A DNA stretch of 64,000 bases from Sulfurospirillum sp. 1612 (lineage in GTDB: Bacteria; Campylobacterota; Campylobacteria; Campylobacterales; Sulfurospirillaceae). The stretch lies in NCBI RefSeq assembly GCF_036556685.1, contig NZ_CP140614.1, forward strand, positions 806,001 to 870,000. Reading direction: 5' to 3'. Positions 3,485 to 51,696 of the stretch are shown here, piece by piece; within the stretch, counting starts at the first letter, position 1, and every line of letters starts with the position of its first letter. The translations under genes and the position numbers were made by a program. The notes under the pieces are model-generated. The model saw only the letters and a program-made list of their open reading frames with translations. It was not told the origin of the DNA and searched no databases.

Positions 3485-4069
3485 TTGAGTTTGAAAGAGA
3501 ATTTAAAAAGTGTCAAAGATGAGATTGGGGCTGAAGAACAATTTCTAGAAAGCATTATAAAAGGTGAACGCTTCTATAAGAGATACAAACGTTATATTAT
3601 TATTGGCGCCATTGCTATTGTTGTTTTTGTTGTGGGATATATGACATCAACTTATATGACAAACCGAAATCTAACCCTTTCAAATCAAGCATATGAAACA
3701 TTAATAAAATCACCAAAAGATGCCGAAGCGCTTAAAACGCTAAAAAGTAAAAATGCGACACTATATGCTGTGTTTCAATTTCAAGAGGCTGTGAAAAACA
3801 AAGATGTTGCGGCATTAAAAACCTTGTCTGAGAATAAAGACAATGCCTTTTTGGCAGATTTATCCTCCTATGAGTTATCTCAAATTAACAATACAGAACC
3901 TCAAAAAAGTCAATTACTGAATGGTTTTGTACTATTAGAAGAAGGATTTGATTTGTTAAAAAAAGGTAAACAAGCAGAGGCATCATTGAAATTTGCACAA
4001 ATTGATCCAAATTCACCACTGGCTCAAATTGTTAAAAATCTAGAACATTATAAAGTGAACACCAAATGA
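3485..4069 (+). CDS. YfgM-like single-pass membrane protein with TPR-like domain
   Basis: 194 residues: a short charged cytoplasmic N-terminus, one membrane segment (about 38-57) and a helical, TPR-like domain outside the membrane. The architecture and the overlap with a BamB-like lipoprotein gene match E. coli yfgM-bamB; YfgM is a partner of the Sec translocon and periplasmic chaperones. Sequence similarity alone is too weak for me to transfer the name. The start is TTG, supported by AAGGA about 6 bases before it. The stop overlaps the next start (ATGA). Confidence 0.65.
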   Translation: MSLKENLKSVKDEIGAEEQFLESIIKGERFYKRYKRYIIIGAIAIVVFVVGYMTSTYMTNRNLTLSNQAYETLIKSPKDAEALKTLKSKNATLYAVFQFQEAVKNKDVAALKTLSENKDNAFLADLSSYELSQINNTEPQKSQLLNGFVLLEEGFDLLKKGKQAEASLKFAQIDPNSPLAQIVKNLEHYKVNTK

Positions 4070-5076
4070 AATATTTACATTTAATCGTTGCAGCATCATT
4101 AGGTCTCTTATTGCTTAGTGGATGTGGCACAAAAAGACAAAATTTTGAACCCAAATCGGTATCTTATGCTATTAGTTATGATGGGACATTGCCCTCAGAG
4201 ATTGTAGATGTGTCACGTCATGGTGCTACATTGCAAAATGGGCAAATAATCACGAGTTCTGGATTACAAAAGGTGACGTTGCCAAAGGGATTTATGTTTC
4301 TTAATGATGATAATGGCCACTATCTCGCCGCATCACAATGTGGTGATTTGATTGTATTGGACAAGAATTCAAAGATTATTTATAAAAAGAAATTTGATAC
4401 CACGGTTGCATCAGCGGTGTTAAAGGATTCTAAAATTGCTTTAGTATTGGCCTCCAATACGATGGTGCTTTTGGATATGAAAAAAAATACGATTTTATTT
4501 CAAAATCAAGAAGATACAACCTATGCCCTTGATTCGAGAATAGCTGCACCGTATTTCCTTGATAGTCTTGTTCTCTTTCCTACCTTAGATGGCCGACTTT
4601 TAGTAGTGGATTCTAAAAGCAATAAAATTTTGCGTAATATTGTCATTAGCGATGAGAAGTTTTTTGGTAATGTTATTTATTTGGGAGTTCTTGGTAATCG
4701 CTTGGTCGCAGCAACGAATAAAAAAGTGGTCTCGATTAGTCCTAAGACGATGACTACGCTAGAGGCTCATGTGAAAGATGTCATTGTGTTAAAAGGGAGA
4801 ATTTTTGTCTTTACCAATGATGGGACTGTTATCTTAGCCAATGAAGACCTCAAGGTTTTGAAAAAGAGAAAATTTACTTTTGCTGTGTTTGCTGGAGTTA
4901 TTTATGGTAAATATATTTATATGATTGAGCGGGGAGGGTATTTGATTGCAACTGATATTGATTTGATTACGGCCAATGTCTATAAGATACCTGAAGATAT
5001 CAATTCGTACTTATATTTTACAAAAGATGAATTTTACTATAAAAATAAATATTTTAAGTTGTCACACAAGAAATAG
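4066..5076 (+). CDS. BamB-like lipoprotein with beta-propeller repeats
   Basis: 336 residues with a lipoprotein signal ending in LLSGC (Cys20). The rest consists of repeating short beta-strand units (for example DLIVLDKNSKIIYKK, TMVLLDMKKNTILFQ, RLLVVDSKSNKILRN), as in PQQ-like/BamB propellers. BamB is the accessory lipoprotein of the BAM complex that inserts outer-membrane proteins; lptD, a typical client, is elsewhere in this window. Inference: this is the Campylobacterota counterpart of BamB. Several similar positions in the family carry only the label putative lipoprotein. Confidence 0.65.
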   Translation: MKYLHLIVAASLGLLLLSGCGTKRQNFEPKSVSYAISYDGTLPSEIVDVSRHGATLQNGQIITSSGLQKVTLPKGFMFLNDDNGHYLAASQCGDLIVLDKNSKIIYKKKFDTTVASAVLKDSKIALVLASNTMVLLDMKKNTILFQNQEDTTYALDSRIAAPYFLDSLVLFPTLDGRLLVVDSKSNKILRNIVISDEKFFGNVIYLGVLGNRLVAATNKKVVSISPKTMTTLEAHVKDVIVLKGRIFVFTNDGTVILANEDLKVLKKRKFTFAVFAGVIYGKYIYMIERGGYLIATDIDLITANVYKIPEDINSYLYFTKDEFYYKNKYFKLSHKK

Positions 5077-11968: not shown

Positions 11969-13765
11969 TTAAGAATTACAAAAGGTATGAATTTTTTTCG
12001 CTAAATTTGCGTTAATAAGGCTCTTTAACTCTTCTAACGAGGCTTTATAAATGTGATCATAAGTGCCAAAATAGGATAACAACTTTTTGATGGTAGCCGG
12101 TCCTACTCCTTCGATTGATTGAAGCGGGTCGTTGAGATCAAGACTTCGTTTTTTCTTTTGATGAAAGGAGATGGCAAAGCGGTGCGCCTCATCTCTTAAG
12201 CGTTGTAAAAATTGTAATCTTTGGTCTTGTGTCGGCAAAGAGAGGCTGTATTGAGAACAATGTAAGATATCTTTGGCACGCCCTTTGGAACGGTTAGACT
12301 TGGCATCGTGCTTTTCTTTTGATATCGCTAGGACTTCGAGCATGATATGATGGTCTTCTAAGAGAGACATGGCGAGCTTCAATAATGTCATACCGCCATC
12401 TAAAAGCCAGAGATCGGGCATGGGGTTACTTTTAAAGTCCTGAATACGCCGTGTTAGAAGTTCGCGCATTTGCGCATATTCACTGGTTTCATTTAAGTTA
12501 TATTTGCGATAACTTGATTTGTCAAATTTGCCTTCCCAAACAATCATGCCCCCTACAGTGGCAACACCTCCCATATGGGAGTTGTCAAAAACTTCAATGC
12601 GATAGGGGGTACGCTTTAAATCAAACAATTCTTGTATCTCTTTGGCCGGGTCTTTTTTCTTCTTTTCCAGACCCAAGAGATAGTGTGCATTTTTTTGAGA
12701 GATGGCAATGAGCTTGGTTTTTTCTCCTCTTTTTGGTGTTGTGATTTTGATTTTTTTACCAAAAAGATTCATCAAATACTCTTCAAGCGTCTCTTTTTCT
12801 TTGAAATCATGACCAACCAAAATTTGAGAACACAATAAAGGCGCATCTTGTCCGTAAAACTGTAATATTGCGCGTTTATAAAGCTCATCTTTATCAAAAC
12901 CAGTTGAATTTTTAAGAAGAGTGTGATCGGTTGATATAATTTTCCCCTCACGTATAAACATCTTGATGATGATGGCATGACCGGCCTCTTCATGAACATA
13001 AAAAATATCAAAATCTTCCAATCTTGCGAGATCTACTTGAGTGATTTGGGTTGTGTGTCGTATGGCTTGAATCATATCGCGTATTCTTGCTGCTTCTTCA
13101 AAATGCTCTAAAGAGACGGCTTTTTGCATCTGTTTTTCGAGTAATGCTAACATTTTTTTTCTATTTTTCAGTGCACTGATGGCCTCTTGGACGATTGTTG
13201 CATATTCTTGTGCTGAGATTTTACCCTCACAGGGGGCATGACAGCGTTGCATTTGATAGAAAAGACATGCTTTTTTTGATTTTAGGCACCCCTTTTTTTG
13301 TACCAAATTAAAGAGAAGATAAAGGGATTCCATAATTTCGCGCGATGCGCTAGAAAAAGGACCAAAATATTTAACATTTTTTTTCTTGATAATTTTACGG
13401 GTAATTTCAAATCTTGGAAAAGCTTCATCTAAATCAATAGAAATGTAAGGGTAGGTTTTATCATCTCTGAGCAAAATATTGTATTTGGGTTTGAGTTGCT
13501 TGATTAGAGAATTTTCTAAAATCAGTGCATCGTGTTCATTCTCTACCAAAATATATTTGAGCTCTTTGGCTTCATGAATCATTTTGGTGATTCTCGCACT
13601 GAGATTACGAGCAGGAGCAACATCTGAGAGCGAACGAAAATAACTTTTGACTCGATTTTTGAGATTTTTTGCCTTGCCTACATAGAGAAGATGACCATCC
13701 TCATCAAAATATTGATACACCCCACTACTTTGTGGTAGTGTTTTTAATTGTTCCCTCAAGCTCAT
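11969..13765 (-). CDS. uvrC: Excinuclease ABC subunit C
   Basis: Nuclease subunit of nucleotide excision repair that cuts both sides of a lesion. 598 residues, normal length. Visible are the GIY-YIG domain (GVYQYFD, LLYVGKAKNLKNRVKSYF), a Cys-rich segment (GCLKSKKACLFYQMQRCHAPC), the UVR/UvrB-binding helix (FEEAARIRDMIQAI), the RNase-H-like endonuclease part (EVFDNSHMGG, LWLLDGG) and a helix-hairpin-helix end (IEGVGPATIKKLLSYFG). Its start overlaps the stop of the DUF721 gene (ATGA). Confidence 0.97.
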   Translation of the reverse strand: MSLREQLKTLPQSSGVYQYFDEDGHLLYVGKAKNLKNRVKSYFRSLSDVAPARNLSARITKMIHEAKELKYILVENEHDALILENSLIKQLKPKYNILLRDDKTYPYISIDLDEAFPRFEITRKIIKKKNVKYFGPFSSASREIMESLYLLFNLVQKKGCLKSKKACLFYQMQRCHAPCEGKISAQEYATIVQEAISALKNRKKMLALLEKQMQKAVSLEHFEEAARIRDMIQAIRHTTQITQVDLARLEDFDIFYVHEEAGHAIIIKMFIREGKIISTDHTLLKNSTGFDKDELYKRAILQFYGQDAPLLCSQILVGHDFKEKETLEEYLMNLFGKKIKITTPKRGEKTKLIAISQKNAHYLLGLEKKKKDPAKEIQELFDLKRTPYRIEVFDNSHMGGVATVGGMIVWEGKFDKSSYRKYNLNETSEYAQMRELLTRRIQDFKSNPMPDLWLLDGGMTLLKLAMSLLEDHHIMLEVLAISKEKHDAKSNRSKGRAKDILHCSQYSLSLPTQDQRLQFLQRLRDEAHRFAISFHQKKKRSLDLNDPLQSIEGVGPATIKKLLSYFGTYDHIYKASLEELKSLINANLAKKIHTFCNS

Positions 13766-14214
13766 GATCTATTTTTTTCTTTGATAGTGTTACGAATTTC
13801 TTCAAACAAAGATTGTAGCTCTTTGTTGGAGGAGTGATTAGCAAAAGTGGCATTGGACCGTTCTTTATATCGGAGTACTTTGGTTTGTGACACATTGGGT
13901 TTTGTGAGGGGACCTTTATTGCTAACGAAAGCACGAATCTTGCTTGAATTGATAAATATGCAGTTCGGATTGAGCTCGATGAGCTTTTTTAATATACTCT
14001 TTATCAAATTACTCTTATAATTAAATTCCATTTTTATACCGGGGTGTGTGAGCACAAAAAAAAGCGTATCATTCTTCTGATACATAAATCTTGTGTGACT
14101 ACTGATACTCTTTGGTAATAAAGAGAGCAACATGTTGTAACAATCAGCATGCTGTAATTTTTTTAAATAAGGTCTGTTTTTTAAATGAGAAATTATATAA
14201 TTTGCTTTTTTCAT
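13762..14214 (-). CDS. DUF721 (DciA-like) protein
   Basis: 150 residues, basic, no membrane segment. The first 85 residues (ADCYNMLLSLLPKSIS, then LFFVLTHPGIKMEFNY and SNLIKSILKKL) fit the DUF721 pattern. DciA members of that family load or assist the replicative helicase in bacteria without DnaC. The match is by eye and moderate. The 5' end is overlapped by an opposite-strand lipoprotein gene by 30 bases. Confidence 0.6.
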   Translation of the reverse strand: MKKANYIISHLKNRPYLKKLQHADCYNMLLSLLPKSISSHTRFMYQKNDTLFFVLTHPGIKMEFNYKSNLIKSILKKLIELNPNCIFINSSKIRAFVSNKGPLTKPNVSQTKVLRYKERSNATFANHSSNKELQSLFEEIRNTIKEKNRS

Positions 14215-14316
14215 GCTCTAATTATAGCATCACTTTTCTTTAGTTTTACAGGTTGTGGATATAAAGGTCCACCGAGTTATCAAAGTCAAGACCAAAGCAC
14301 AAAAGTCTCGCAATGA
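14185..14316 (+). CDS. LptM-like 43-residue lipoprotein
   Basis: Hand-translated from the ATG at 14185. A hydrophobic signal ends in a lipobox (FSFTGC), followed by GYKGPPSYQS and a short polar tail. The GCGxKGP signature is that of LptM (YifL), the small outer-membrane lipoprotein that helps LptD acquire its native disulfides; lptD is in this window at 21365. AAGG lies 12 bases before the ATG. The stop overlaps the nadB start (ATGA), so the two are translationally coupled. The 5' end runs antisense over the first codons of the DUF721 gene. Confidence 0.7.
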   Translation: MRNYIICFFHALIIASLFFSFTGCGYKGPPSYQSQDQSTKVSQ

Positions 14317-15776
14317 GTGCCTTAAAACAACATTATGATGTATTGATTATTGGTACGGGAGTTGCGGGATTAAATACAGCCAATCACTTAGATGATGATT
14401 TAGATGTCCTGGTGATATCGAAAGATTATGCGTGGGAATGCAACACCTTTTATGCGCAAGGTGGTGTGGCTGTTGCTGTTGATGAGGATGATATTCCCTC
14501 ACACATAGAAGACACCCTCAATGCCGGAGCGGGACTTTGTGATAAAGAGGCTGTTGAGATTTTGTGTCATGAGGGACGTGATGCTATTGCTGATTTTATG
14601 CGCAGTGGTTTTGAATTTGATCGCGATGCGTCTGGAAATCTTTTATACACAAAAGAAGCCGCACATTCACGCAACCGAATTTTGCATGCCGGTGGCGATG
14701 CCACAGGACGCTATATCCATTTGCATTTGATGAATCAATTAAAATTTCCCATTCTTTATAATACACAAGTGAGTGATTTACTCATCGAAGATGGTGTCTG
14801 TTATGGGGTACGTGTCTTTCATCATAATGAAATTTTTAATATTTATGCCAAACACGTTGTGATTGCTAGTGGCGGGGTGGGATCACTCTATGAGTATCAT
14901 ACTAACGCAAGAACCATCAGTGCCGATATGCAAGGAATTTGCTTGAGCCATGGTATTGCTCTTAGAGATATGGAGATGATGCAATTTCACCCGACCGTTT
15001 TTGTGCAAAGCAATGCCGTACGAAAACAACTATTGAGCGAATCACTTCGAGGAGAGGGAGCAAAAGTTGTCGACAGCAAAGGCAAACGATTCTTGTTCGA
15101 TTATGATGCACGAGGGGAACTCAGTCCTAGAAATATTGTCTCTCAAGCGATTTTTGATTATCAAAAGCGTGTGGATAAAAAAATATTTTTAGATGTGAGT
15201 CATTTTGAAGATGAATTTTTTATGAAACGCTTTCCTAGTATTTACTTCAATATGAAAGGGATGGGCTATAATCTTCCAAAAGATTTGATTCCCATATCTC
15301 CGGCATTTCATTATGCTATGGGGGGAATCAAATGCGACTTGATGGGGCGTGTTGATGGTATGGCGTGTCTGTATGTAGTCGGAGAATCAGCCAATACCCG
15401 AGTTCATGGGGCGAATCGATTGGCCAGTAATTCTCTTTTAGAAGGGTTTGTCTTTTCAAGACGCGTGGCTCATGATATCTGCGAAAAAAGAGATGATGAC
15501 AAACCTGCGGTACTCTTTGATGAATGTGAACCAAGCTTGATCAAACGTGGAGATAAAGAGCTAAAAAATAGATTAAGAAATTTGATGTGGGATAATGTCG
15601 GTATTATTCGTGAGAAAGAAAATTTAGAAAAAGCACGACAAAGCGTAGAAGATATGCTAGAATTACCAACCGGAAAACTTTTGAGACTAAGATTACTAAG
15701 CTCAAGAGAGATTATAAAAAGTGCGCTAAAGAGAGAAAAATCTCTTGGTGCACACTATCTTATAAGGAGAGATTAA
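14313..15776 (+). CDS. nadB: L-aspartate oxidase
   Basis: FAD enzyme oxidising L-aspartate to iminoaspartate, the first step of de novo NAD synthesis (with NadA). 487 residues, somewhat shorter than the E. coli enzyme. Visible are the FAD dinucleotide fold GTGVAGLNTA, AQGGVAVAV, the active-site region SLRGEGAKVVDSKGKRF and the FAD contacts AMGGIKCDLMGRVDG and ANRLASNSLLEG. Fumarate can serve as electron acceptor in anaerobes. Confidence 0.95.
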   Translation: MSALKQHYDVLIIGTGVAGLNTANHLDDDLDVLVISKDYAWECNTFYAQGGVAVAVDEDDIPSHIEDTLNAGAGLCDKEAVEILCHEGRDAIADFMRSGFEFDRDASGNLLYTKEAAHSRNRILHAGGDATGRYIHLHLMNQLKFPILYNTQVSDLLIEDGVCYGVRVFHHNEIFNIYAKHVVIASGGVGSLYEYHTNARTISADMQGICLSHGIALRDMEMMQFHPTVFVQSNAVRKQLLSESLRGEGAKVVDSKGKRFLFDYDARGELSPRNIVSQAIFDYQKRVDKKIFLDVSHFEDEFFMKRFPSIYFNMKGMGYNLPKDLIPISPAFHYAMGGIKCDLMGRVDGMACLYVVGESANTRVHGANRLASNSLLEGFVFSRRVAHDICEKRDDDKPAVLFDECEPSLIKRGDKELKNRLRNLMWDNVGIIREKENLEKARQSVEDMLELPTGKLLRLRLLSSREIIKSALKREKSLGAHYLIRRD

Positions 15777-19406: not shown

Positions 19407-19606
19407 ACTGCCTGAGTGGTACGACACCGTTTTTTATGAGGGTCCAACATATTGTTATCTGTGGGACGGGTGTTTTATTGGTGTGTCTGCATTTTTGTTT
19501 GAGCTTCTTTGAAGTTAGAATCTGCAGCCTAAAGATAAAATTAGTTCTACATCGTTGGCTTAATAGGGCCAAAGAGTAAACGAACGGCCGCTTGGGTTAA
19601 GCAGTA
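19407..19606 (+). ncRNA. ssrS: 6S RNA
   Basis: About 200 bases with no ORF, a promoter at its 5' end and an intrinsic terminator at its 3' end. The ends pair: ACTGC (19407-19411) with GCAGT (19601-19605) and CTGAG (19412-19416) with CTTGG (19591-19595, using G-U pairs), leaving a long irregular hairpin with a G/U-rich middle, as in 6S RNA. Its place directly before purD is where I recall 6S RNA in Campylobacterota. 6S RNA mimics an open promoter and binds sigma-70 RNA polymerase in stationary phase. The family call should be checked by covariance search. Confidence 0.72.
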
Positions 19607-19635
19607 GTCACTCTTTTGTGCCTACTGCTTTTTTA
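19600..19635 (+). terminator. Intrinsic terminator after the 6S-like RNA
   Basis: AGCAGTAG / CTACTGCT (8 bp), an inner CAC/GTG after one mismatch, loop TCTTTT, then TTTTTTA. The 5' arm is also the strand that closes the 6S stem, so the two folds compete. Read-through would enter purD 20 bases downstream. Confidence 0.88.
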
Positions 19636-20923: not shown

Positions 20924-21375
20924 ATGACGATCAGATAATAGAAACATTTGAGCGTGAAAATATTACGCTAGCATCAATTAAAAAGAGATTGTGGGCTTAT
21001 ACGATTGATGAGATTTTGATCTCCGTTATTTTTGTGATTATTTATATGGGGATTATTCCTCCTGATGCCACGTATGAACAAATTATTACTTTGATTAATA
21101 GCATGTTTATTTATGTGGTGTCTCTCAAAATTATTTATCAGACTTTCTTTGTCTGGTATTATGGGGCAACCCCTGGGAAAATTCTCTCAAAAATCAGAGT
21201 CATCTCCACAGTAGATATAGAAAATCCAAATCTTTTAAGTGCACTAAATCGAGCCATTGTGCGAATTATTAGTGAGAGTTTCTTTTATATTGGTTTCTTG
21301 TGGGCATTTGCAAATCCGAAGCGAGAAACGTGGCATGACAAGATAGCAAAGACATTGGTTGTTAATGTTTATTAG
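20920..21375 (+). CDS. RDD family membrane protein
   Basis: 151 residues with an RDD domain: Arg and Asp in the first membrane helix region (KKRLWAYTIDEILISVIF), two or three membrane segments and the family motif YYGATPGKILSKIRVI. Function is unknown in general; some members have been linked to ion exchange. It overlaps purD by ATGA and lptD by 11 bases, so it belongs to this operon. The position between purD and lptD fits an envelope role, but this is only context. Confidence 0.85.
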   Translation: MNDDQIIETFERENITLASIKKRLWAYTIDEILISVIFVIIYMGIIPPDATYEQIITLINSMFIYVVSLKIIYQTFFVWYYGATPGKILSKIRVISTVDIENPNLLSALNRAIVRIISESFFYIGFLWAFANPKRETWHDKIAKTLVVNVY

Positions 21376-23455
21376 GGTTTTATTTCTCTTATCTGTTTTT
21401 TTGACATTTGGTATTGCGCAGACACAAAACGTCGAAGTTTTAGCAAAAAATGTCAAAAAAGTCGGTTATAATATTCATGCAGAGGGCAATGTTGTATTGT
21501 ACTCTCAAAAATATCTCATTACAGCAGACAAAGCCGATTATAATCAACAAACAGGAGATTTGCAGCTCTATGGTGATATTACCGTCCTTGAAGGTCTTGA
21601 ATTTTCTGCCAAAAGCGGTCAAGCATCGCTCAATCTCAATACGGATATGGGGTCATTCCAGCCACTCTTTTTTTTCAATGACGCCTCAAATATTTGGTTG
21701 AGTTGTGAGAGTGCGACGTCGAGTCCTGAATATTTCTTGACCCAAAAATCAATTGTATCGAGTTGTAATGTTCAAAATCCAGATTGGAAAATTGATTTTA
21801 CATCAGGCGAACTCAATCGTAAAAATAGTTTTTTGAGTATCTATAATGCCGTTTTTTATGCGGGAGATGTCCCCTTGCTCTATTTACCATATTTTTCATT
21901 TTCCACTGATAAGACAAGGCGTACGGGACTTTTGAGACCCAAGCTTGGATTTGGTAGTTCTGAGGGATTATTTTATATGCAACCCATCTATTTTGCGCCA
22001 CAGGCCAATTATGATGTGGAAGTCGACCCGCAAATCCGCACATCCAGAGGTAAGGGCGTGCATAGTGTGCTACGATATGTAGATTCCCCATATTCTACCT
22101 TGAAAGTAGGAGCGGGTATTTTTCAAGAAGATGATACTTACAAGACAGAACATGACCTTGTCAATCAAGAACATTACGGGCTAGAGTTATATTATGATCG
22201 AAGCCAGTTATTTAGCAATAAAAAAAGTAATAACAGTGAAGATGGGCTGTATGTTGATTTTCAATATTTAAATGATATCGACTACTTAAATACAAAATCG
22301 TATAATGATGCTTCTTATGACAACCTTGTAACATCAACCTTTAATTATTACTACAAACAAGATTTGAACTATTATGGACTTTATGCAAAATATTATATTG
22401 ATACGAGTAAAACTTCAAATAATGATACCTTGCAAGAGTTGCCCGCTTTGCAATACCACCGGTTTTCAACGCCACTATTTTTTAATAATCTCCTCTATTC
22501 ACTAGATGCTAAAATGAAAAATTATGAGCGTATTTCAGGGGTGAATGCAACGCAATATGAATTAAATGCTCCTCTGACATTTTATTTTTCACTTTTAGAT
22601 GATTATCTAAAATTTTCAATTTCTGAGAATATTTATCTGACACATGTGGATTATACCAATGCCGCAACACCAACACGATACGGAGAGTATTATAGAAATT
22701 ATCACAAATTTTCACTCTATACTGACCTTTCAAAACCGTATGATAACTTCTACCACACGCTCTATTTGGATTTAGATTTCATTGTACCGAGCAAAGAAGA
22801 AAAAAATGGCTATTTTGCTGATTTTATTCCTGTGGACACAGAAGAGAAAAGTTTGACTTTTAATTTGGCAGAGTTTTTTTATAATTCTCAGGGTGAAAAA
22901 AAAGTTAGCCATACTGTAAAACAACAGTACTTTTTCAATGATTATGGCTATAAATATGGAGATTTGGAAAATAATCTAAAATTTTTCTTCTCCAAAAAGA
23001 TTAATTTTACCAATACGATTTATTATTCTCATGAGTTTTCACGTTTCTCAAAAATCCAAAATGCCTTTAACTATGATGGTGAAACATATCAAGCAAGTTT
23101 GACCTATACGTATGAGCACAGCGTGAGCCGTACTTATATCGATCGCGTATATACCAATACAAACTTTGTCTCGCTTTCAGTGAGTACAAATTTTTATCGA
23201 AATTATACTTTTTTTGGCTCTATCGATTATGATTTTAAAGATGAATTTTTCAAAACTTGGAAGATAGGCTTCAAGAAAAAGAAAAAATGTTGGGATTTTT
23301 CTATCATATACAGTCAAAATATCACGCCACAGTTAAGCAGTTCTTCGAGCAGTTCTGTTAACAAACAGGGAATCTATTTCTTGTTTAATCTCTATCCAAT
23401 TGGTAGTGTTGATTATCAAATTGTGAAAGAGGATAGTCTCTCAACGACCAATTAA
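21365..23455 (+). CDS. lptD: LPS-assembly outer-membrane protein LptD
   Basis: 696 residues. A signal peptide ends near GIAQTQ; a jellyroll (OstA/LptA-like) domain follows (AEGNVVLYSQKYLITADKA); then a large beta-barrel with many aromatic-flanked strands. Two Cys-containing N-terminal sites (WLSCESATS, IVSSCNV) and one near the C-terminus (KKKCWDFSIIY) are consistent with the long-range disulfides LptD needs. With LptE it inserts LPS into the outer leaflet. The ATG at 21365 is preferred to a TTG at 21359 because it starts a proper signal peptide. Confidence 0.9.
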   Translation: MFIRVLFLLSVFLTFGIAQTQNVEVLAKNVKKVGYNIHAEGNVVLYSQKYLITADKADYNQQTGDLQLYGDITVLEGLEFSAKSGQASLNLNTDMGSFQPLFFFNDASNIWLSCESATSSPEYFLTQKSIVSSCNVQNPDWKIDFTSGELNRKNSFLSIYNAVFYAGDVPLLYLPYFSFSTDKTRRTGLLRPKLGFGSSEGLFYMQPIYFAPQANYDVEVDPQIRTSRGKGVHSVLRYVDSPYSTLKVGAGIFQEDDTYKTEHDLVNQEHYGLELYYDRSQLFSNKKSNNSEDGLYVDFQYLNDIDYLNTKSYNDASYDNLVTSTFNYYYKQDLNYYGLYAKYYIDTSKTSNNDTLQELPALQYHRFSTPLFFNNLLYSLDAKMKNYERISGVNATQYELNAPLTFYFSLLDDYLKFSISENIYLTHVDYTNAATPTRYGEYYRNYHKFSLYTDLSKPYDNFYHTLYLDLDFIVPSKEEKNGYFADFIPVDTEEKSLTFNLAEFFYNSQGEKKVSHTVKQQYFFNDYGYKYGDLENNLKFFFSKKINFTNTIYYSHEFSRFSKIQNAFNYDGETYQASLTYTYEHSVSRTYIDRVYTNTNFVSLSVSTNFYRNYTFFGSIDYDFKDEFFKTWKIGFKKKKKCWDFSIIYSQNITPQLSSSSSSSVNKQGIYFLFNLYPIGSVDYQIVKEDSLSTTN

Positions 23456-49884: not shown

Positions 49885-51696
49885 ATGCGGGGAAACAAAA
49901 AAATATTAGCTATTTTTGCGGGCATTTTGCTCTCTTTTTCTTTATTAATTATTGCTATTGTTGTGGTGAGTTTTAAAAGCTATGTCCAAAAACGAGAATT
50001 TGTGCAAGCCAAGATTGTCGCCTCTATGGTTGAGGGTGGATTAACCGCGCATATGAATGCGGGTGTCATGAGCCAGCGTCAACTTTTCTTGGAAAATGCG
50101 AAAAAATCCGCAGATGCTCTTGATATTTGGATTTTTAGAACGGACAAAGTCGTCCAGGAATTTGGCAAAGGCTTTCCCAATGAAACAGTGAGAGATGCCA
50201 TAGACAAAACAATGATAAAAACCAAAAAAATTCAAGAAGTGATTCATGATGATCTTCTAAATCCAACCCTTCGGATCACCATCCCCTATATTGCAACAGC
50301 GCATTCTCATCCTGATTGTCTCAGTTGTCATACCAATGCAAAAGAGGGCGATGTACTAGGGGGTATTAGTATGGTATTTAGCCTGCAACAAGCCCGATAT
50401 AATAGTATCATGACGATTTTGCGTATTTTTGGTATTTCGATTCTCTTTATCATACTGTTTATTTTTGTGACGAGTAAACTGCTGAAACCTTATGTGGGAA
50501 GTTTAATCTATATCAAAGAATCCTTGGAAAAAGCCAACAAAGGTGATTACTCAACACGTATCAAACTCATGGGAGATAATGAATCCACAGAAGCGTTCAA
50601 ATGGCTCAATACCCTTCTTGAAAAGCTGCAAGAGATGGTCGGCTCGATTGATAAAAATATCGCACTTTTTGTCTCTGATCGTCGGCAAACCTTTCAAGAC
50701 CCCCTAGAAAAATCAAAATTTATCATCGAAGATATCGCGATGTTGTACCGGTTTAAAAAAGTCATCGAACAAGATATTTCCAAGCAAATCATTTACCAAA
50801 GATTGGTGAAATTTTTCAAAGAACACCTCAAGATTGAAAATTTGTCATTTTATGAAGTGGATATCAAAAAAGATACACGCACTTTGATATACGAAGACAT
50901 TACAGAGGATTTTTGTCACGCCTCAATCAATACCAGTGTCAATTGCAGAGCTTTTCGAACCAACTCGATTGTGGCGAGTGATGATTTTGAATCGGTATGT
51001 CAAGCGTGCAAATTGAAGCGAGATTATCTGTGTATTAACTATCCGATTGATGAAAATATCTCATTGGTTATCAATATCAAACCCAAAGATAGCGACGCTC
51101 TGTTTCAAAGCAAAAAAGCCATCGGCTATATCAAAAATTATCTTGAATCGGCCAGACCGGTTTTACAAAGCAAGATATTGACGGAAATCTTACAAAAATC
51201 CAATATGATTGATGGTTTGACAGGATTACACAACCGAAAATATCTGGATATTTTCATGGAAACGCGTGTCTTAGAGTATAAATCTTATGCGATTGCCATG
51301 CTGGATATTGATTATTTTAAAAAGGTCAATGACTCTTATGGTCATGATGCCGGAGATCGTGTGCTTAGAGGACTTTCTGAAATATTTAAAAAGACAATCA
51401 AGAAAGAAGATGTAGCGTTTCGCTTTGGTGGAGAAGAGTTTCTGATTTTTATGCCTACGAGTAAAGATGCTTATGAAACAATCAAAAAGATCAAAGACAT
51501 GTTTGAAAAAACTATTTTTGAGATGGGAGAGACGAGTCTCAATAAAACATTGAGTGCGGGAATATCGTATTACAAAGAAGATGCTCCAAGTGCGTGGCAA
51601 GTGATCAAAAATGCTGATATTGCTTTGTATGATGCCAAACATAGCGGTAGGAATAAAATCGTTTTGTTTAAGGACATCAAGGAAAAGGATCAATAA
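49885..51696 (+). CDS. Diguanylate cyclase with periplasmic c-type haem sensor
   Basis: 603 residues. Membrane segment (9-30); periplasmic domain (31-178) with one CxxCH haem c site, Cys145-His149 (PDCLSCHTNA), as in DUF3365/Tll0287-like sensors; second membrane segment (about 179-201); HAMP; GAF-like domain (about 295-420) with four or five Cys, including VCQAC and YLCINYP; GGDEF with DIDYFK and intact FGGEEF. The I-site position is KKED, so Arg is lost. It can be expected to make c-di-GMP in response to a redox or gas signal at the haem. It directly precedes the adhesin and pilus genes. Confidence 0.88.
   Translation: MRGNKKILAIFAGILLSFSLLIIAIVVVSFKSYVQKREFVQAKIVASMVEGGLTAHMNAGVMSQRQLFLENAKKSADALDIWIFRTDKVVQEFGKGFPNETVRDAIDKTMIKTKKIQEVIHDDLLNPTLRITIPYIATAHSHPDCLSCHTNAKEGDVLGGISMVFSLQQARYNSIMTILRIFGISILFIILFIFVTSKLLKPYVGSLIYIKESLEKANKGDYSTRIKLMGDNESTEAFKWLNTLLEKLQEMVGSIDKNIALFVSDRRQTFQDPLEKSKFIIEDIAMLYRFKKVIEQDISKQIIYQRLVKFFKEHLKIENLSFYEVDIKKDTRTLIYEDITEDFCHASINTSVNCRAFRTNSIVASDDFESVCQACKLKRDYLCINYPIDENISLVINIKPKDSDALFQSKKAIGYIKNYLESARPVLQSKILTEILQKSNMIDGLTGLHNRKYLDIFMETRVLEYKSYAIAMLDIDYFKKVNDSYGHDAGDRVLRGLSEIFKKTIKKEDVAFRFGGEEFLIFMPTSKDAYETIKKIKDMFEKTIFEMGETSLNKTLSAGISYYKEDAPSAWQVIKNADIALYDAKHSGRNKIVLFKDIKEKDQ

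Follow-up and report, generated by a model that had tools for sequence, protein, structure and literature searches.

The Escherichia coli lipoprotein LptM (YifL; PF13627, NF047847) aids LptD in acquiring its native disulfide bonds, and its residue Lys23 has been modelled with Glu275 of LptD as its partner (PMC10567701). In E. coli LptD, Cys173 pairs with Cys725; the first ten mature residues of LptM are located at the gate and hinge of LptD, and the N-terminal region of LptM is enough for co-purification, according to the available text of PMC12644819. A Pfam-based survey found LptM to be virtually absent outside Proteobacteria (available text of PMC10567701). The sequence-only reading of the locus described here had supposed that LptM was unreported in Campylobacterota, and indeed the open-licence literature searched yielded no paper that deals with LptM there. 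The terms LptM, Helicobacter, and Campylobacter occur once or twice each in the accessible text of PMC10865981, and in the accessible main text of a review on envelope quality control in Campylobacterota (PMC12428200) there is no LptD or LptE and no occurrence of LptM.

Two descriptions of Campylobacteria genes bear on the same locus. The gene cj1247c/hp0820 is the only one predicted to be leaderless in all Epsilonproteobacteria having it, and it is always found upstream of uvrC; the available text of the paper links it to stress responses and does not mention an overlapping lipoprotein gene (PMC3847290). Its place directly upstream of uvrC in that text is why we take it to be dciA. For DciA combined with leaderless expression, only mycobacterial work was found in the open-licence literature searched, as far as the texts were accessible. 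The second description is that of CJsORF25, a 69-residue open reading frame (ORF) in the 5'UTR of C. jejuni guaA, which was detected by integrated ribosome profiling and is present in most Campylobacter; neither lipoprotein nor LptM occurs in the available main text of that study (PMC11955535).

The window, i.e., the whole 64,000-nucleotide stretch of Sulfurospirillum sp. 1612 DNA analyzed here, contains the following features.

11969 to 13765, minus strand: uvrC, downstream of dciA and named by its place beside dciA (cf. the available text of PMC3847290)

13762 to 14214, minus strand: dciA (DUF721), of the replicative-helicase partner family, divergent neighbour of the lipoprotein gene with a 30-base overlap

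14185 to 14316, plus strand: LptM-like lipoprotein gene, ATG to TGA, 43 codons for 43 residues; a homologous frame is present at 148 of the 150 loci inspected

14221 to 14229, minus strand: extended -10 box TGCTATAAT, 6 nt upstream of the ATG of dciA (a predicted leaderless gene), at lipoprotein codons I13-I14-A15

14254 to 14280, plus strand: mature-motif codons C-G-Y-K-G-P-P-S-Y, a segment under purifying selection

14313 to 15776, plus strand: nadB (FAD-binding), with an ATGA overlap with the lipoprotein gene

about 21365 to 23455, plus strand: lptD, the presumed target, with cysteines equivalent to C173 and C725 of E. coli

The 43-residue product, MRNYIICFFHALIIASLFFSFTGC followed by GYKGPPSYQSQDQSTKVSQ, is exactly the lipoprotein with a lipobox and GYKGPP that had been described: the lipobox is FTGC, residues 1 to 23 are predicted to be a signal peptide, and Cys24 is predicted to be lipidated, so that the mature protein would start with CGYKGPPSY. 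The remaining positional claims of the sequence-only reading were also confirmed in the window. The TGA of the ORF shares ATGA with the start codon of nadB, its first 30 bases (14185 to 14214) are antisense to the DUF721 ORF, whose minus-strand start is at 14214, and lptD starts 7.0 kb downstream, in line with the 7 kb that had been given. The Pfam DciA model matches the DUF721 ORF with E = 5e-4 and 20.6 bits, just under the 24-bit cut-off, and the NCBI LptD models match the window lptD, though far under their cut-offs. The minus-strand ORF at 11969 to 13765 we take to be uvrC from its place beside dciA.

The lipoprotein is found in nearly all Campylobacteria. In a class-wide sample of 397 genomes, profile A1, built from 23 proteins of the own family, has a match in 392 (E ≤ 0.1), and profile A2, built from 29 sequences, matches 80 of 80 genomes, mostly weak ones, as well as 61 of 61 genomes drawn at the phylum level, all of which belong to the same order. 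Loci were inspected in 150 genomes, one in each, from 12 of the 13 families encountered, and a frame with C[GA]x[KRQ]xxP is present at 148 of these 150 loci. Four of the five genomes without an A1 match have a frame beside dciA (L116, L148, L149, and L150), and no frame was seen in the fifth (G213, L151). In the own family, nadB is found in 44 of 44 genomes, and a small lipobox ORF precedes it in 29 of 30 loci; in the remaining one (L005), a contig end cuts it. The sequence-only reading had staked its case on conservation of the lipobox and GYKGP in relatives, and conservation held (148 of 150 loci), while the small lipobox ORFs it proposed to look for upstream of nadB are present in 29 of the 30 own-family loci. 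Relative to the lipidated Cys (C), Gly at C+1 is present in 145 and Lys at C+3 in 144 of the 148 loci. Pro at C+6 is present in all 148, which is partly by construction because the Cys was located with a pattern that includes P+6, but it is equally invariant in the unselected alignments behind profiles A1 and A2. The residue at C+8 is Tyr in 109, Trp in 20, and Asn in 15 loci. An ATG start is available in 124 loci and only GTG or TTG in 23. That an overlooked, nearly class-wide, and real lipoprotein gene is present at this position is near certain.

The genomic neighbours are of unequal constancy. The divergent dciA adjoins the lipoprotein gene in 143 of 148 loci, whereas the downstream gene is nadB in 89, guaA in 17, nhaD in 14, and another gene in 28. 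Since nadB lies downstream in only 89 loci, dciA is the constant partner and nadB is incidental. The proposed fusion to nadB is therefore correct as to the ATGA overlap in the window but not general; it is a detail of the lineage. A leader peptide coupling or regulating the translation of nadB could account for the ATGA junction and for the 89 loci in which nadB follows. In the other 59, however, guaA, nhaD, or another gene is downstream with the motif kept, and selection acts on the lipobox and the mature motif. We rejected this reading, which we regard as very improbable, on the downstream gene counts. The antisense overlap with the DUF721 gene, on the other hand, was real and had been understated by a passing mention, since it is the striking conserved feature of the locus. 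In the five loci without an adjacent dciA (L069, L117, L118, L126, and L146), the mature motif is kept in all five, and a Phe-His pair of the signal peptide is missing in L117, L118, and L146 and kept in L069 and L126.

The mature motif CGYKxxPxY is under purifying selection, and protein-level selection is strongest outside the dciA overlap. From C to C+8, the 24 distinct sequences of the family give an uncorrected pN/pS of 0.20 and the 113 of the class one of 0.28, compared with 0.81 and 0.93, respectively, for the six codons after C+8; the class-wide values are near saturation and usable as a contrast only. The codons at the mature-motif residues vary synonymously. This pattern bears on whether the frame could be an artefact, open only because the 5' end and promoter of dciA are conserved on the other strand. 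Although dciA does dictate the Phe-His and Ile-Ile pairs of the signal peptide, selection at the protein level is strongest beyond the overlap, the motif is kept in the five loci without an adjacent dciA, and the ribosome profiling in the available text of PMC11955535 detected CJsORF25. A C. coli locus (L209) has a family member of 69 residues, with CGYKGNPQY after the lipobox, that ends 4 nt before guaA; it has the same length as CJsORF25 and the same place before guaA, and on these grounds we take the two to be the same gene, which the available main text of PMC11955535 calls neither a lipoprotein nor LptM. A spurious antisense frame, which scarcely any probability can be given, was rejected for the class from the selection pattern and the published CJsORF25 profiling.

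The signal-peptide codons carry a second signal on the opposite strand. The antisense of the dciA ATG is an in-frame CAT (His) codon of the lipoprotein in 134 of the 143 loci; in three in-frame loci the residue before His differs from Phe, and in 8 more loci dciA is in another frame relation without Phe-His. The -10 hexamer of dciA ends exactly 6 nt before the ATG at 132 of 143 starts, and TATAAT is matched at no fewer than 5 of 6 positions at 118 of the 143, compared with 8.3% of 5845 control ATGs. A -10 box ending 5 to 9 nt before the ATG, which together with the lack of a Shine-Dalgarno sequence marks a leaderless gene, is thus found at dciA. In the 130 distinct in-frame loci in which the codon pattern was scored, CAT and two free codons are followed by ATT or ATC in 120, then by ATA (73), TTA (41), or GTA (6), and then by GCA (70), ACA (30), or TCA (9); the opposite strand of these codons reads TGn-TAn-AAT, an extended -10. 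Where the fourth codon encodes Ile, it is ATA in 73 of 74 cases, whereas Ile elsewhere in the same ORFs is ATA in 105 of 240. The constraint is on the DNA because the amino acids vary (Ile, Leu, or Val; Ala, Thr, or Ser) while the promoter bases stay. Conservation of F-H-x-x-I-I for protein function was accordingly rejected, since the codon bases track TGnTAnAAT and ATG and not the amino acids.

These observations suggest that the 5' end of the lipoprotein gene is a double-coding segment whose other strand would supply dciA with its extended -10 promoter and its ATG, a lock that is well supported at the sequence level. The overlap is kept through most of the class, and the lock probably dates to the ancestor of the class. 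Because its promoter and start would be fixed inside the codons of another gene, leaving no room for a leader, dciA would be forced to be leaderless, and because dciA shares those bases, the signal peptide would be forced to the form F-H-x-x-I-[IL]-[ATS]. The universal leaderless status of cj1247c/hp0820 may thus follow from the overlap with the lipoprotein codons, which would give a published puzzle an explanation at the DNA level. If so, this is an antisense pair in which neither gene can move its start without harming the other, and antisense double coding of long standing would have a clear example here, testable codon by codon.

The mature protein resembles LptM more closely than any other family compared, i.e., LptM is the best match among the NCBIfam models and the PDB chains. 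NF047847 matches 26 of 29 relatives (E ≤ 1) with a best E of 3.4e-7, whereas the next family matches 9 with a best E of 0.011, and PF13627 matches 19 of the 29. When profile A2 was compared with 177635 distinct PDB sequences, two full-length LptM chains ranked first with weak E values of 0.058 and 0.068 (next, 1.4), and when a class-wide profile was run against 208 kb of E. coli DNA (3953 frames), LptM came out on top (E = 9e-4; next, 1.8). A profile limited to 14 residues around the Cys failed to single out E. coli LptM, which ranked third (E = 2.3), and was rejected as a test for lack of discrimination. In its own whole genome, the window ORF is the sole PF13627 match at E ≤ 0.1. At that threshold, PF13627 matches 231 of 397 genomes, none of them over the cut-off, and single matches are weak because control genomes also match (6 of 14).

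The curated cut-offs are largely missed. The window protein scores 19.1 bits with PF13627, under the gathering cut-off of 27.3, and 23.0 bits with the NF047847 equivalog model, under its cut-off of 27.7; E. coli LptM, as a control, scores 44.5 bits with the latter, above the cut-off. Among six relatives scanned singly with NF047847, one (L067) is above the cut-off with 30.2 bits, one (L052) is at it with 27.7 bits, and four are under it, so that most Campylobacteria members scanned score under the curated values. Like E. coli LptM, the lipoprotein is small, has Cys-Gly at its lipobox and a Lys at C+3 that Pro and Tyr soon follow, ends in a short and poorly conserved tail, and occurs where LptD has interdomain cysteines. 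Pro and Tyr, however, are at C+6 and C+8, one residue later than C+5 and C+7 of E. coli LptM, the residue at C+2 is Tyr instead of Leu, and the gene is next to dciA, whereas the E. coli order, the only one compared, is cyaY-lptM-dapF with no shared neighbour. We do not grant membership in LptM proper, because the Pfam cut-off is not reached and the NCBI cut-off is reached by some relatives only. The LptM identity proposed from the window alone is thus right in its LptM-type start and in the nearest family, and it falls short at both curated cut-offs and in the one-residue shift of Pro and Tyr; the comparison with LptM profiles that had been suggested gave the same divided answer, with the window protein under both cut-offs, L067 above the NCBI one, and L052 at it.

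LptD, the presumed target, was detected in each of 71 genomes, and all 50 proteins inspected (L172 to L201 and L219 to L238) have the cysteines that align with E. coli C173 and C725. The equivalent of C31 is present in 1 of the 50 and that of C724 in none. As C173 and C725 are disulfide partners in E. coli, the LptD of the class appears to have kept one interdomain disulfide. Glu is present at the E275 position in 9 of the 50 LptD proteins, whereas Lys at C+3 of the lipoprotein is present in 144 of 148 loci; a salt bridge with E275 was therefore rejected as a test of an LptM role. In 25 of the 66 genomes where both genes were placed, lptD lies up to 15 kb downstream of the lipoprotein gene and is encoded on the same strand.

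A conserved ORF under selection, its lipobox, a mature motif closest to that of LptM, and a matching cysteine pair in LptD are thus found together. We consider it likely, judging from these sequence features, that the gene encodes a small lipoprotein of the outer membrane, present in nearly all Campylobacteria, which acts on LptD in the manner of LptM. The protein would be exported, lipidated at Cys24, and placed in the outer membrane, where the lipid and the first approximately nine mature residues (CGYKxxPxY) may dock to LptD, at its hinge and lateral gate, during LptD/LptE assembly; docking would help the single disulfide between β-taco and barrel, equivalent to C173-C725, to form, a presumed part in oxidation. 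The full picture has about an even chance of being correct: a divergent LptM, found almost throughout the class, would mature an LptD with one disulfide, and its signal-peptide codons would be locked to the promoter and start of a leaderless dciA. With an LptM candidate in nearly all sampled Campylobacteria, to which Helicobacter and Campylobacter belong, this maturation of LptD would become more ancient and more general, and the class, with a single interdomain cysteine pair, would offer a simpler setting for it.

The motif is partly shared by other lipoproteins of the class. LptE (PF04390), the lipoprotein of the LptD translocon, starts with CGY in 26 of 28 N-termini (loci L239 to L268), the other two looking misparsed; the start is usually CGYKP (CGY[KRQ]P in most), with Tyr at C+8 in 18 of 28. 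This CGYKP...Y echoes the CGYKxxPxY of the small lipoprotein, but LptE has a folded domain of approximately 150 residues and is encoded by a separate gene elsewhere in the genome. A 336-residue lipoprotein with a weak likeness to BamB is encoded in the window at 4066 to 5076 on the plus strand; it starts with CGTK and reaches 17.6 bits against the NCBI LptM model. Because LptE starts with CGYKP and the BamB-like protein with CGTK, the motif may in part be generic for the phylum. A conserved outer-membrane lipoprotein of different function, such as a factor for envelope assembly on the BAM side or elsewhere, whose likeness to LptM is convergent on a common CGYK, is thus a possible, though less probable, explanation, and the register shift from E. 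coli LptM and the poor discrimination of the short profile agree with it. The pattern of Pro at C+6 and an aromatic residue at C+8, and the selection on it, exceed CGYK, however, and no NCBIfam model or PDB chain matches better than LptM, to whose Pfam model this lipoprotein ORF alone responds in its own genome. Pro at C+6 and its selection set the small lipoprotein apart from the other CGYK starts. CGYK itself may be a docking signal common to the partners of LptD or a generic outer-membrane lipoprotein start in the phylum; if LptM-like action is correct, LptE and LptM may share a lipidated CGYK start as their common LptD-docking signal.

Several further features were observed. The search for RNA elements around the lipoprotein locus gave a sole match, 5 kb off: a purD RNA motif (RF01069; 76.8 bits, cut-off 41) at 19470 to 19597 on the plus strand, directly before the ORF at 19616. 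One locus (L145, genome G210) has no usable start ahead of the lipobox, and the gene is probably broken by truncation or a frameshift. In most loci of a genus that we take to be Helicobacter (g19), a TTG or GTG start lies behind AAGGAG or GGGAG (L124, L127, L128, L130 to L133, L138, L139, and L141), and because of these starts the gene may have been missed in annotation there. Three loci of family f6 (L108, L135, and L143) are divergent, with CAHKGDPFW, CAKRGAPFW, or CAKQGAPFW replacing CGYKxxPxY. In one genome (L107), the lipoprotein frame is present twice, side by side (G107:C2:50332-50442 and 50515-50622).
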